This document shows, in pieces, positions 36,369 to 47,169 of a stretch of DNA of 64,000 nucleotides (positions are counted from its first letter, which is position 1; each line of letters starts with the position of its first letter). The notes under the pieces were generated by a model, which ran no database searches, was not told the origin of the DNA, and saw only the letters and a list, made by a program, of their open reading frames with translations. The DNA comes from Laspinema palackyanum D2a (GTDB taxonomy: Bacteria > Cyanobacteriota > Cyanobacteriia > Cyanobacteriales > Laspinemataceae): assembly GCA_025370845.1 (NCBI GenBank), contig JAMXFF010000001.1:276162-340161 (forward strand), in the 5' to 3' direction. Made by a program: the position numbers and the translations under genes.

Positions 36369-37955
36369 ATGCCAGACTACTATCAACTTGAAAAACGCCT
36401 ATGGGACGCGGCGGATCAATTGCGTGCCAATTCCAAACTCAAACCGTCGGAATATTCCCTGCCGGTACTGGGATTAATTTTCCTGCGCTATGCTGACTAT
36501 AAGTTTACCCAAGCCCTACAGCGCTATCACACAAGCGATCGCCCGGTAGCGGAACGGGAACGGGAACGGGTGTTATCCATTCCCCTCCAGGCACGGTTTG
36601 AGTCTCTGCTGAATCGACCGACAGAAGCCAACCTCGGGGAAGAACTCAATAGTGCGATGCGGGCGATCGAGGCGGAAAACCCCGCATTGAAAAACATCCT
36701 CCCCAAAACTTACCACCGTCTCAGTAACGAAATCCTCCGGCAACTGCTGACAGACTTTCATACCATCGCTTTGGATATCGAAGGCGATGCCTTTGGGCGA
36801 ATTTATGAATACTTCCTCAGCAATTTTGCCATGAGTGAAGGACAAAAAGGGGGTGAATTTTTTACCCCTACCTCTTTAGTCAAACTGATTGTTGAAATTA
36901 TCGAACCCTATCACGGACGAATTTTTGACCCGGCTTGCGGCAGTGGGGGAATGTTTGTTCAAAGTGCCTCCTTCGTAGAAAAACGGCAGAAAAATCCTAG
37001 CACGGACATCGGAATTTATGGACAAGAGAAAATTGCGGATAATGTGCGGCTTTGCTTGATGAATCTGGCCATCCACGGACTCACCGGAGATATTCGCCAA
37101 AGCAATACTTATTATGAAGATATCCATGATTGTGTGGGTAAATTCGATTTTGTCATGGCCAATCCCCCCTTTAATGTAGACAAAGTAGACAAAGAAAAAA
37201 TCAAAAACGACCCCCGATTTCCGTTGGGATTACCTCGGGTTGATAATGCCAACTATTTGTGGATTCAATTATTTTATAGCGCCTTAAATGCCAAGGGGCG
37301 GGCGGGTTTTGTGATGGCAAATTCCGCCAGTGATGCTCGCGGGCTGGAGTTGGAAATCCGCAAAAAACTGATTCACGAAGGGGTTTTAGAGGCGATCGTC
37401 GCTGTGGGTTCTCACTTTTTCTATACTGTCGGCTTACCCTGTACACTCTGGTTCTTCGATCGCGCCAAAGTAAATAACCCCCGCAAAGATAAAGTTCTAT
37501 TTATCGATGCTCGACAATTCTATCAACACGTTTACCGTTCCCACCGCCAATTTAGCGACGAACAAATTCAATTTTTAGGGAATATTGTCCGAATGTATCG
37601 CGGACAATCGGTTGAATCGGTGGCAACTTTACCGGAACATACTCGGTACAATCCTGCGGTCCCTGCTTACGGGACTTTACCCAATTGGGAGGAAACCTTT
37701 CCTAACAATATCTATCGTGATGTTCCCGGTTTATGCCGAATTTCCCTAATTTCAGAAATTGCTGAACAGTCTTATAGCTTGAATCCGGGACGGTATGTGG
37801 GTATCGCCCCCCAACCTGAAGAGGATGTTAATTTTCAGGAGAAATTACAAGAACTCCATGACGAATTCGAGATGCTCACCGTCGAGGCGAGAGAACTAGA
37901 AGGGCGAATTTCTAAAACGATTGATCGCTTTTTAAAGGTGAAGGGAAATGAATGA
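36369..37955 (+). CDS. hsdM: type I restriction-modification DNA methyltransferase subunit
   Basis: Adenine-N6 methyltransferase subunit of a type I system. N-terminal HsdM helical domain (about residues 5-130), the SAM-binding motif DPACGSGG (starting at residue 187) and the catalytic NPPF (Asn265) are all intact; a C-terminal helical tail (about 490-528) would contact HsdS. At 528 residues it is full length. The ATG follows AGGGGAAAA. hsdS follows 99 bases downstream. No hsdR is found on either side in the window. Confidence 0.93.
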
Positions 37956-38054
37956 AGGATTAAACCACTTTAGGACTTCCTCATTCCTCCCCTTTTTCCA
38001 GGATGGGGGACTGCTTACTTCTAAAGTCTGGTACTATACTGGCCAGTTAAAACC

Positions 38055-39320
38055 GTGACACAAGGAAACAATTGGACGCAAAAACAGATTGGGGAAGTTT
38101 GCCTGATTGGAGATGGCACCCATGCCAAGATTAAAAGGCAAAATGAGGGTATTCTGTATTTAACCGCCAAAAATATTAAACCGGGCCAGTTAAAACTTTC
38201 CAAGGTTGACCGGATATCCGAAACAGATTTTGACCGCTATTTTTGTAAAAATACCCAATCCATTCGCAAGCCCGAAGCCGGGGATATCTTATTTGGGATC
38301 ATTGGGAGCATTGGAGAACCCTATTTAGTTAAACCCGATGACTTATTTGGGATTTCTAGTAGTCTAGCTATTTTAAGACCGAATCTTAGCCTTCTCTGGC
38401 CTCCTTATCTTTATTACTGGGTAAAAGGTCCGATTTTTCAAAATGCGTTAGAGGCCAGAAAGGCGGGGGTTGTTCAATGTTATATCAGTTTAAATACCCT
38501 AAAAAGAATGCCGATCGCCTATCCAGATTTGGGTAGACAACAAAAAATAGCCGCCATTCTGAAGGATTATGATGACTTGATTTCTAACAACCAACGGCGG
38601 ATTAAGATACTCGAACAAATGGCGCAAAGTATCTATCAGGAGTGGTTTACGAAATGGCGAATTCCTCATGTAGAATGGCGGGAGGCAACGCCGGAAGAAC
38701 AACAAGTGACCGGCCAGGAATTGTTTCCGGTGGGATGGGCGATCGCACCGATTGGGGAGGCGATCGAAACCCTTAGCGGCGATACCCCCGCAAAGAAAAA
38801 ACCCGAATACTGGGCCAATGGAACATTAGTCTGGTACAGAACCACGGATTTAACCACGGCGGGAACCATGTTTATTTCCGGTTCTACTCACAAAATTACC
38901 GAGGTGGGGCAACAGGGCAGTAAAATCCGCACATTCCCCCCGTATTCGGTGATGATGACATCTCGGGCCACCATTGGGGTTGTCGCAATTAATACCACCA
39001 CGGCTTGTACCAACCAAGGATTCATTACTTGTATCCCCAATGAGCGGTTATCGGCTTACTATTTATATTTTTGGATTAAGGAAAACCGCGATCGCATCTT
39101 TAACCTGGCATCAGGATTAATGTACCGCGAAATCAATCTCGGCTGGTTTCGACAATTACCGATCGCCATTCCCGACGCCGCTACCCACCATCAGTTTATC
39201 GAAACCCTGGACCCCCTCTGTGAACAAATCCAAACCTTACAAGCCAAAACAACTAACCTCAAGTTAACTCGGGAGTTACTCTTGAGTAAATTACTCTCCG
39301 GCGAAATTGATGTTGAGTAG
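38055..39320 (+). CDS. hsdS: type I restriction-modification specificity subunit
   Basis: Determines the bipartite DNA target of the HsdM complex. Two target-recognition domains (about residues 5-140 and 215-370) are each followed by a conserved helical spacer: IAAILKDYDDLISNNQRRIK near 172-191 and a second near 370-415 ending in LLSKLLSGEIDVE. The length of 421 is normal, so the subunit is complete. The start is a GTG at 38055 with no visible ribosome-binding site; the frame is open upstream only to 38025 and offers no ATG. No hsdR follows; the next gene is an unrelated histidine kinase on the opposite strand. Confidence 0.92.
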   Translation: MTQGNNWTQKQIGEVCLIGDGTHAKIKRQNEGILYLTAKNIKPGQLKLSKVDRISETDFDRYFCKNTQSIRKPEAGDILFGIIGSIGEPYLVKPDDLFGISSSLAILRPNLSLLWPPYLYYWVKGPIFQNALEARKAGVVQCYISLNTLKRMPIAYPDLGRQQKIAAILKDYDDLISNNQRRIKILEQMAQSIYQEWFTKWRIPHVEWREATPEEQQVTGQELFPVGWAIAPIGEAIETLSGDTPAKKKPEYWANGTLVWYRTTDLTTAGTMFISGSTHKITEVGQQGSKIRTFPPYSVMMTSRATIGVVAINTTTACTNQGFITCIPNERLSAYYLYFWIKENRDRIFNLASGLMYREINLGWFRQLPIAIPDAATHHQFIETLDPLCEQIQTLQAKTTNLKLTRELLLSKLLSGEIDVE

Positions 39321-43936: not shown

Positions 43937-44137
43937 GCTGCCTTTACCTGAGAGGAACAAGTGGGATATCTATTCTTACTATAAATCCATTTGTTTATCT
44001 TCTGTCAACTCCCGGGAAAATCGGCTCTCTCCTGGCCGAAAACGACGCTAAATCGTTAATTGGGTCTAAATTCACAGAACAGAGGTCAGCGGGTCCTTGA
44101 TGTTCGCCTCCTTCCCTGTTTGAGAGCGGCTTAGGCG

Positions 44138-46573
44138 TCACTCATTTTGTTCACTTTGTTCAAGTTGGTCATTCAGTCCAAGTTCTTGGAGGGCTACTTT
44201 TGTCTCATCCTGCTTTTGCTCAGAAACTTCCCCCTCGATCGCCACTTCTATTTTTACCGTAAGTTTAACCGCTTTGTCACTGGCAAATTTACTCAGAACT
44301 CGGGTATAGAAATTCATCCATTTTTGAGGAGCAATTTCACCCGTCCACTTCAACCCTTGGGGTTGAGGGGGGATTTCTATTTCATCAGCGACTTGATAGG
44401 ACATCACCTTCTCTTTCGCACTCACCGTCGGAGACACTTTGACCGAAAATTCCCCGATCGCCTGGATTGTTCCTACGGTTGCCGTCACCGTGAAGTTCCC
44501 CTCATCTCCCCCTGCGGTGAGAACCCCATCCGGTGCGATCGCCCCCCCTGTCGCCGTCCACTGGATGTCATCGATCGCAATGTCTTGGTTATACTGATCC
44601 CGTCCCCGGACTGTAAACGTTTGCTTCTTACCCGCTTCCAGTTGCACTCGGGGAGGTGAAATGACCAATGTGTTCAATTTCGGGGGGTCTGTAATCCGTT
44701 GCAGGTAGGCTTCCGCCTCTTCTGCTTTCAGGATAAACATATCTTCAGAAATCTCAACTTGACTGGCAGCTAAATCCGTTTTGAACTCAAACGGTTGATA
44801 ATGATCCCCCGAAGTTTTGCCCAGATAAGCCAGATTACCGTCTTTTACCCCCCGGGCGATCGCCTCCTTAACCGCATCTGCCTTCAGCAATCGGGGGAAG
44901 AGGGGAGAAGCAAAAAACGCATCTCGAACCGATTGGGTACTCCACTCCAAGAAGGCACCGGACCAATTACGCACCAGGAATCGCGAACTCACCGTCTCTG
45001 AAACCTCCCCATCCAGGCGCAAACGGTTGAGAATCAACTCCACCGGAGATTGGGCGGCACTCGAAGTCACCAAGCCCAAATTCACCACCCGCACCCTATT
45101 ATCTTTACCCAACAGGGCCAGATATTTATACGCGCGCCATACGGATTCCCCCAAATCGCGCTGGGCTTTTTTGAGGTTTTCCGAGAGGTGCTTTTTCTGC
45201 GCGTCGTCTAACTCCTGTTCCTGATCCCGGATATCTTCCCAAGCTAACACCTTGCGGGCTTCCTCTCTCAACTGGACCTCCGAGTCGGCGATCGCAAATA
45301 GTAACGCACTCTTGAAGGTCCTCGATGAAGCGCCGGATTCTCGAATCATCCCCTCGATTAACGTGAGGGTATTTTCCTCAGAATACGGGTGTCCCGGTGC
45401 CATCACCGCTAAAGTTAGCACCGCTTGGTTGGGGATATGGTTCGGTTGTTCGGGAAAATGAATCACCTGAATCCCTTGGCTGGGGGTAAACACGGTCTGA
45501 ATTTCCTGGTGCACTCGCTCATCAATGCGGCTGCCCTGGACATTCGCCCGACGGTCTGCTAAAATTTTGTTGAGGTTAGGATACAACGTGAACCGATATT
45601 TCGTTTGGGCAACGGTCAGGTAATAGCACTCGCTGCTTAACGATTCCAAAACCGTTTCTATATTACCGATATCCACATTGGGTTCTCCCACAGCCAGTCG
45701 AATTTCTGGAACGGTTGCCTCGGTGCGAGTACAGCCGCCATTGGACTCGAAAAAAATCGCCGTGGTGACCTTGCGATGCAGCCGATATTTTTTAATCTCT
45801 TCACTGGCTTCTGCATCCAGACGCATAGCATGGGCGTCTTTTTTGCCGCAAATATCCGTTGTCACCGCCCCTTCTAGGCGATTTTCCCCCAGTTGCTCAA
45901 ATACCGCTGGGCGAAATAAGGGATTGTCCAGGGGTGCAGTTCCCAAGCCAATCAGGGCGTCCCGATGGTTGCCTTGATACCCTTCCTGATAGGCGATCGA
46001 TACCCACAAGGCTAATAGGCGTAATACGCCCCGGGTGCGCTGAAATCGCGGTAAAGCCTGCCATTTGCGCTCGAATACCGAGAGGAGGGCGGGATGGAAG
46101 GGATAAGTGGCTTTAAAGGCTTCCCGAGCACTATCAATGGGAAACCAACTGGGTAACTGCTGGCGGTATTCTGCCACCCAATCGGCGTAATGATTGCAGG
46201 TTGTATCGGCATCTTTGGGTAACATGATTTTACCGTCAGGGGTGACAGCGTTGGTCGTCCATTCAAATAAGCGGCGACGGATAATTTCTGATGTCTCGGA
46301 TTCCGCCGACATATGGGCCAATCCCCAGCGCAATGCTTCCACCCCGAGGCGAAATTTCAGCGGGTCCCCATCAAAAGGTTCCTGATCCAGACTCACATTG
46401 AGTTCAGCTAATTGTTCCAGGGTGAGGATCGGTTCATAAACTTGATGAGTCTGGAGCCCTTTCCCGATGAGTTTAAGGGAATTTCCCAAGGGGACGGTGA
46501 CAATCACCTGCACGGGTTCAGGAAACAGAGAACCTGTGACAATTGCATTAGGCTTAAGCTGTTGGGGTTGCAT
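44138..46573 (-). CDS. chimeric remnant: helicase N-terminus fused to DUF499 C-terminal part
   Basis: An intact 811-codon frame with two unrelated halves. Residues 1-86 (from LKPNAIVTGSLFPEPV to PFDGDPLKFRLGVEALR) match the N-terminal domain of the SNF2-type helicase found in DUF1156/DUF499 anti-phage islands. From residue about 88 (SAESETSEIIRRRLFEW) it matches the C-terminal two thirds of DUF499 ATPases, including PSWFPIDSAREAF and a terminal Ig-like (Big_2) domain (about 660-735). The Walker-type ATPase part of DUF499, the rest of the helicase and the DUF1156 methyltransferase usually between them are absent. The junction is near 46313. This is most simply one large in-frame deletion. Function is unlikely to be that of either parent. 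The matches are from memory of the families. Confidence 0.7.
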   Translation of the reverse strand: MQPQQLKPNAIVTGSLFPEPVQVIVTVPLGNSLKLIGKGLQTHQVYEPILTLEQLAELNVSLDQEPFDGDPLKFRLGVEALRWGLAHMSAESETSEIIRRRLFEWTTNAVTPDGKIMLPKDADTTCNHYADWVAEYRQQLPSWFPIDSAREAFKATYPFHPALLSVFERKWQALPRFQRTRGVLRLLALWVSIAYQEGYQGNHRDALIGLGTAPLDNPLFRPAVFEQLGENRLEGAVTTDICGKKDAHAMRLDAEASEEIKKYRLHRKVTTAIFFESNGGCTRTEATVPEIRLAVGEPNVDIGNIETVLESLSSECYYLTVAQTKYRFTLYPNLNKILADRRANVQGSRIDERVHQEIQTVFTPSQGIQVIHFPEQPNHIPNQAVLTLAVMAPGHPYSEENTLTLIEGMIRESGASSRTFKSALLFAIADSEVQLREEARKVLAWEDIRDQEQELDDAQKKHLSENLKKAQRDLGESVWRAYKYLALLGKDNRVRVVNLGLVTSSAAQSPVELILNRLRLDGEVSETVSSRFLVRNWSGAFLEWSTQSVRDAFFASPLFPRLLKADAVKEAIARGVKDGNLAYLGKTSGDHYQPFEFKTDLAASQVEISEDMFILKAEEAEAYLQRITDPPKLNTLVISPPRVQLEAGKKQTFTVRGRDQYNQDIAIDDIQWTATGGAIAPDGVLTAGGDEGNFTVTATVGTIQAIGEFSVKVSPTVSAKEKVMSYQVADEIEIPPQPQGLKWTGEIAPQKWMNFYTRVLSKFASDKAVKLTVKIEVAIEGEVSEQKQDETKVALQELGLNDQLEQSEQNE

Positions 46574-46740
46574 TACTCTATTTCCCTAAGTCTTGGGCTG
46601 GACATATTGGGCGATCGGTTGCATCCCCCAGGGCCGATCAAGCATGGCGTAGCTGTGAGCATGGATTTGACCCACTTAACCTCACTCAATTATACCATAG
46701 CTGATGGCTGACCAGAATAGGTTTTTGATATTCGTGGTGA

Positions 46741-47076
46741 TTTGCCTCACATTTAACGGCACCTCCCTCCGGTCCCCTCCCCTGATTCTTGGGGAGGGTT
46801 AGGGTGGGGTCCACGCGCAATGCGCGTCACTCTTTCCAGCTTAAGCGCCTGTATGGAAGCGGGTCCAACCTCTTTCTTCGTGAGGTGGCGATCGCTCGTC
46901 AAGAGGACTCTCCACCCACTCATTCCTCTTGGGGAGCGATCGCATCGCCCCTCAAGAGGACCCCACCCTAACCCTCCCCTTGCCAAGGGGAGGGGACCAT
47001 CAGGTGCCGTTAAATAGGAAGGCAAATCTTCCCTGAACGTAAAAAAAACTACTCTTGTAAGCCCTTAAAAGGGGGA
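46741..47076. mobile_element. palindromic repeat element, copy 3
   Basis: Arms at 46741-46812 and 46958-47026 are imperfect inverted repeats of the same type as in copy 1. The core between them is inverted relative to copy 1: words such as CTCCACCCACTCATTCCTCT appear here on the plus strand and in copy 1 on the minus. The right flank (47031-47066) is the reverse complement of the left flank of copy 1 (24859-24893). No coding capacity. Confidence 0.7.
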
Positions 47077-47169
47077 AACCAGAGGAATAAATGTTGAATT
47101 CCTGGGGGGCTTTTTAGAATTTTGCCAGCAGTGTAATATAGACCTGTCTTCTGAGTCCGATATGAAAAT

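Follow-up and report, generated by a model that had tools for sequence, protein, structure and literature searches.

The Hma system (HmaA, HmaB and HmaC in PADLOC; accessible part of PMC8565338) and the Type-1 DUF499-centred BREX-related (BR) systems are the closest described counterparts of the locus analysed here. In the accessible part of PMC12839542, Type-1 BR systems comprise a Tudor-bearing SNF2 helicase, a DUF1156 methylase and a DUF499 ATPase, the parent families of our gene; one N-terminal Tudor domain is assigned to these helicases there, and the name Tudor used below is that of the literature. For BrxC of BREX, DNA binding is ATP-dependent (accessible part of PMC13326643). Judged by sequence, both parts of the gene in our window descend from the Hma system, one from HmaA and the other from HmaC. 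Compared with Hma, the locus lacks HmaB, the helicase motor and the ATPase core, and two ends of the system form one gene; unlike BrxC, its product has no ATP-binding core. No helicase-DUF499 chimera like this gene was found in the accessible part of PMC12839542, and no earlier report of one was found in the open-licence PMC literature.

The window is a 64,000-nucleotide stretch of contig C44 in the Laspinema palackyanum D2a genome (G000; 7.4 Mb, 116 contigs, 99.99% complete). The ORF at 44138-46573 on the minus strand has 811 codons and is open throughout, with no stop. Comparison with intact relatives (the Hma island of genome G045 and the HmaC of G006, a member of the same genus) confirmed that it consists of two proteins joined in frame between residues 87 and 88:

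46313..46573, minus strand: chimera residues 1-87, the N-terminal domain of an HmaA SNF2 helicase, start codon included, 63% identical to G045 HmaA
44138..46312, minus strand: chimera residues 88-811, HmaC (DUF499 AAA+ ATPase) from its residue 278 to the natural stop, without the nucleotide-binding core
46312..46313, no strand assigned: proposed deletion junction CAT/ATG, codons 87/88, placed by comparing the DNA with the G045 helicase and with the HmaC genes of G006 and G045

The first-pass annotation had read residues 1-86 as the start of an SNF2 helicase and residues 88-811 as the C-terminal part of a DUF499 ATPase, and both assignments held. Residues 1-87 align with residues 1-87 of the intact G045 HmaA (63% identity, E 2e-28); no PADLOC model matched them alone at 0.001. 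Helicase residue 88, the first beyond the break, is E in 26 of 26 aligned homologues. Residues 88-186 match Pfam DUF499 (1.7e-5), residues 90-635 match PADLOC HmaC at profile positions 279-825 of 941 (about 1.1e-53 to 1.4e-53), and residues 88-811 are 97% identical to the intact HmaC of G006 from HmaC residue 278 onwards. The nearest named records for this half come from Microcoleus and Oscillatoria.

At 46312/46313 no bases are shared between the likely parents (the G045 helicase and the G006 or G045 HmaC), from which the parent in the chimera's own lineage may differ. Comparing the 227 bp upstream of the start codon, and an open stretch of 25 residues within them, with the fetched loci revealed no lost gene: the matches were the window's own copies, short repeat-like stretches and chance-level peptides (best other E 0.05), and a lost upstream gene is therefore not claimed. 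A promoter and terminator scan was uninformative, since its counts equalled the shuffled expectation (3 vs 2.7 and 5 vs 4.7).

Each half was searched separately by tblastn, and 108 loci were fetched via the chimera, mostly through HmaC. Apart from L001, 39 of 107 loci contained the N half; in each of them it shared a strand with the C half and lay upstream of it, at a distance of about 1.1 to 10 kb. The 68 loci without an N half are no evidence of loss, as many are short contigs or end near the match, and some contain nothing but distant DUF499 proteins or Ig-like repeats. Partial N-half matches covered residues 1-55 only in L036 and residues 65-87 only in L042. The halves were joined at 87/88 in none of the 107 other loci, and in close homologues the C half starts at residue 88; L103 has both halves in one frame with a different junction. 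The separate searches, which the first-pass annotation had proposed, thus place a break at 87/88 between different parent genes.

The result that would have spoken against such a break is one protein family running on across the junction. When the entire chimera was used as the query, some loci gave HmaC alignments (to the intact protein) that overran into residues 1-87; seven of these loci were checked. Long overruns, reaching residues 2-6, had 24-29% identity (L035 19/80, L042 23/78, L050 25/86 and L074 25/85 identical residues). A separate helicase start was present in L035 (49%), L074 (56%) and L042 (83% over 23 residues, at a contig edge); L050 had none, its available DNA beginning inside the helicase. 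The N half alone matched two intact HmaC proteins no better than E 0.33. Given this and the weak identity of the overruns, a single family across the junction was not seen.

A search of 386 genomes across the phylum gave a match of any kind at 1e-8 in 44, and the junction was continuous in G000 only. In nine of the ten other genomes with HmaC of at least 60% identity, the N half lay in a frame of its own of 1,143-1,180 codons; in G037 and G224 the halves were on different contigs, so that gene order is not visible there.

The first-pass annotation had also expected the order helicase, DUF1156 methyltransferase, DUF499 and had suggested looking for an intact island in related genomes. Such islands, belonging to the same clade, were found in relatives, reading HmaA, HmaB and HmaC, with a small ORF before HmaC in some. 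In G045 (L110) a 1,142-aa helicase (HmaA, 5e-192) is followed by a 1,013-aa DUF1156 methylase (HmaB, 3e-118), a 195-aa ORF and a 998-aa HmaC (9e-120). The single in-frame deletion of several kilobases, proposed from inside the helicase to inside the DUF499 gene, is borne out by this arrangement: removal of 7,638 bp from the G045 copy (L110 6024-13661, by arithmetic) yields the frame of the chimera. Among 44 ORFs that start like the helicase, 37 extend to the helicase end, one of them a duplicate, as L035 and L112 seem to be the same plasmid (both 41,976 bases). The others comprise one cut by the locus edge (L137), one split into three consecutive frames (L044) and five that end early; with the latter, HmaB is absent in L079 and L103, and only a C-terminal part of it occurs in L036, L055 and L085. 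These loci were retrieved through the chimera, mostly by HmaC, which biases the sample against islands that have lost HmaC.

Two of the early-ending helicases are fused to other sequence. In L103 (L103:8337-11792, Planctomycetia MAG JACQFH010000293.1) a 1,151-aa frame joins the helicase up to about residue 234 to HmaC from about residue 65. Like the chimera it is an in-frame fusion of a helicase start and HmaC; unlike the chimera it keeps the HmaC Walker motifs, including GGGKTH. No methylase was found on the 12.4-kb L103 contig. In L079 (L079:7865-9172, a Myxococcota MAG) the helicase up to about residue 236 precedes a weak GmrSD_C match (9e-4, below the Pfam cut-off), and a full-length HmaC follows the fused ORF. 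Both helicases break just after the DEAH motif (DEAHKM, then AA or SA); these are MAG junctions read from the assembly alone. An excess of in-frame joins among early-broken helicases was considered and dropped, the frame being kept in two of five (L079, L103) and, by frame coordinates, not in the other three (L036, L055, L085).

Within the genus, two further features of the window define the site of the chimera:

44001..47145, no strand assigned: the stretch missing from the empty site, comprising the chimera, about 135 bp downstream and upstream DNA with repeats
46708..47070, no strand assigned: cluster of repeats on the upstream side of the chimera; many further copies exist in the genus

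The site is empty in G002, G003, G004, G005 and G007, where 10-30 bp separate the left flank (to 44000) from the right flank (from 47146). G001 has no island either; about 140 bp lie between its matched flanks, each of which is matched only in part. At the same site G006 carries a full HmaC of 1,002 aa behind a DDE transposase-domain ORF, with neither helicase nor methylase. G000 has a helicase start without an HmaC start and G006 the reverse; therefore neither arrangement derives from the other, and we infer that their common ancestor had at least both ends of the island, most simply the whole of it. A full island at this site was found in no genome examined. In the genus DNA search, query positions of about 129-491 recurred often, and the whole query had 183 matches in its own genome. 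The missing middle (the remainder of hmaA, the whole of hmaB and some 275 codons at the start of hmaC) has nothing above 39% identity elsewhere in the G000 assembly. HmaB has no match at the site, and its matches in this genome, on contig C35, are 34% identical.

The lost part of HmaC holds G90-K93, H95, D206 and E207, which are invariant in 25 HmaC sequences; we take G90-K93 with H95 to be the Walker A motif and D206 and E207 to be Walker B. Residues 1-87 are what is left of a helicase of about 1,142. As far as the encoded sequences indicate, a helicase with a complete motor, a DUF1156 methylase and the DUF499 Walker A/B motifs are absent from the locus.

The MAFFT alignment of the chimera set the N-half rows on wrong columns, and hence the parents were folded instead. 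In the HmaC model (mean pLDDT 77.5, pTM 0.43) the five strands of the predicted AAA+ core span residues 81 to 278, and the chimera begins at 278. The middle three strands lie in blocks with pLDDT 80-90, the first (81-87) has 47 and the last (274-278) 60, and residues 279-306 are mostly below 50; owing to this poor prediction, the domain border on the HmaC side is soft. The loss of the nucleotide-binding residues does not depend on where the model sets that border. Among solved structures the intact HmaC model matched BrxC best (9zll, E 2.3e-7); at 0.19, the TM-score on the query was low. The model of the G045 helicase start (mean 70.5; blocks of 84-89 for residues 11-60, below 50 for 64-75 and 91-117) has five predicted strands between residues 10 and 62, and Pfam helicase matches start at residues 101-121 of HmaA. 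Its best solved match was RapA, and RapA without its N-terminus was nearly as good (E 2.4e-17 against 2.9e-14), so the structure search does not identify the HmaA N-terminal domain.

We infer that the chimera product cannot act as Hma: having no helicase motor, methylase or ATP-binding core, it would not scan, modify or restrict DNA in the presumed Hma way. By analogy with BrxC, whose DNA binding is ATP-dependent, a protein without that core should not load on DNA.

The HmaC part differs from its G006 counterpart by 78.5 synonymous and 24.5 nonsynonymous changes (dN/dS 0.085) and by one codon in length, and it has no stop, frameshift or disabling change. When the changes were polarised with four outgroups, 27 synonymous and 10 nonsynonymous fell on the G000 branch and 21 and 7 on the G006 branch, and 38 were unplaced. 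The dN/dS is as low as that of three flanking genes (0.094-0.199). The dS of the HmaC part is 0.174 against 0.079, 0.093 and 0.118 in the flanking genes (about 1.5 to 2.2 times); given this excess, its history may differ from theirs. A neutral share of the G000 branch of at least 15% was rejected at the 5% level by a binomial bound, which moves in 5% steps and rests on a small count, a fixed background dN/dS and placed changes only. In the chimera, a stop would result from about 4.4% of single substitutions, and the 37 placed changes would bring only about 1.6 stops without constraint, so the open frame alone is weak evidence. The first-pass annotation had taken it to mean either a very recent event or selection for a new product. 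The first half of that alternative gains a limit, unconstrained time being roughly at most 15% of the branch since G006; a choice between the two does not follow, since a young deletion and a kept product both fit the rates.

We consider it highly likely that this gene is what a deletion left of an Hma (Type-1 BREX-related) defence island: a scar, most probably a recent one, and not a new machine. An island of HmaA, HmaB and HmaC would have stood at this site in the common ancestor with G006, and comparison with intact copies shows that in the window's lineage a single deletion of about 7.5 kb ran from just after hmaA codon 87 to hmaC codon 278 and joined the ends in frame. Going by the models, the product would be the helicase's small N-terminal domain followed by all of HmaC after the AAA+ core. 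On this reading the frame would have survived because little time has passed since the deletion, before which purifying selection acted on HmaC, as the rates allow; the chimera should decay. This account is backed by the break at 87/88 in separate searches, by the intact order and full-length genes in relatives, by the continuity in G000 alone of 386 genomes and by the absence of the missing middle from the assembly above 39% identity. Also in its favour are the five empty sites, the solo HmaC behind a DDE transposase in G006, the putative Walker A/B residues in the lost part and the branch changes (27 synonymous and 10 nonsynonymous, against 21 and 7 for G006). It sits less easily with the lack of visible decay, a dN/dS of 0.085 as low as in the flanks being also expected of a kept product; with the dS of the HmaC part, which exceeds that of the flanking genes; and with the want of any genome carrying the full island here. 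Both breakpoints, moreover, lie near predicted domain borders, which chance would rarely give. That coincidence, together with a frame intact and constrained on its own branch and an apparently intact HEPN-DUF499, DUF1156 and helicase island in the same genome, speaks for a selected new protein in which a Tudor-like, possibly mark-reading N-terminal domain replaced the AAA+ core of HmaC. It would perhaps serve as an ATP-independent DNA- or partner-binding factor, or as a dominant-negative partner or regulator of the second DUF499 island. We think this improbable: the rates can be explained without it, as the deletion could be younger than most of the branch; BrxC, a studied relative, binds DNA ATP-dependently (accessible part of PMC13326643), which by analogy argues against an ATP-independent role; the paralogous DUF499 protein is only about 30% identical; and the junction recurs in no second genome of the 386. 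The young scar is preferred because no new function is needed.

That the junction is an assembly artefact joining two places seems very unlikely. The assembly is a draft in 116 contigs, but it holds no close match to the rest of hmaA, to any of hmaB or to the first 275 or so codons of hmaC; the contig is syntenic on either side of the gene, and the reading frame is unbroken. Scarcely credible is a natural fused architecture of the family, for which L103 offers one other HmaA-HmaC fused ORF among the fetched loci. In L103 the join lies elsewhere (near residue 234 of the helicase and residue 65 of HmaC) and the AAA+ core is retained, which makes it a separate event; with the window's own loci left out, it is the sole ORF of 10,458 to match both proteins, and no other of the 386 genomes is continuous here.

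Defence islands are already known to come and go; here a single genus shows the site empty, occupied by an alternative remnant, and with the two ends of one island joined. The gene also calls for caution in annotation, as it scores well as HmaC yet lacks the ATPase core and the partners. A functional chimera would mean that an anti-phage system had given rise to a new domain architecture in a single, dated step, and if the chimera were a selected protein, L103 would show that HmaA-HmaC fusions arise and persist more than once.

Small Hma relics occur in five other places, four with HmaC fragments (about 31-99 residues) and the fifth with a helicase fragment of 29 residues (L156, G000:C19; L157, G003:C90; L158, G006:C2; L160, G026:C3; L159, G004:C1). 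It seems that these lineages have seen Hma islands decay more than once. By eye, the relic in the chimera's own genome (L156) adjoins an hsdS-like gene. The window itself carries, at 36369-39320 on the plus strand, paired genes for a type I methylase (HsdM) and a specificity protein (Methylase_S); reading the ORF lists of window 1-54000 by eye brought up no hsdR-like gene. The same genome holds a second, apparently intact island (L161, G000:C35:100000-119900) that encodes a pair of DUF1156 proteins, a helicase of 1,503 aa carrying DUF559 and NOV_C domains, and a HEPN-DUF499 protein; they are about 30-39% identical to Hma proteins.

Of the 66 loci with an HmaB end and an HmaC start, 25 have a conserved ORF of about 190 aa between the two (L110:6869-7456). 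It was unmatched in Pfam, PADLOC, NCBIfam, PHROGs and PDB sequences at the cut-offs used. Its residues E73, D78, E97, E99 and K113 are invariant in 15 aligned sequences, a set reminiscent of a PD-(D/E)XK-like pattern; the ORF may encode an undescribed component that a subset of Hma systems has. The sole match in a viral collection, L108 (IMGVR_UViG_3300017646_000100), has full-length matches to HmaA, HmaB and HmaC in the usual order on a 29.5-kb contig.
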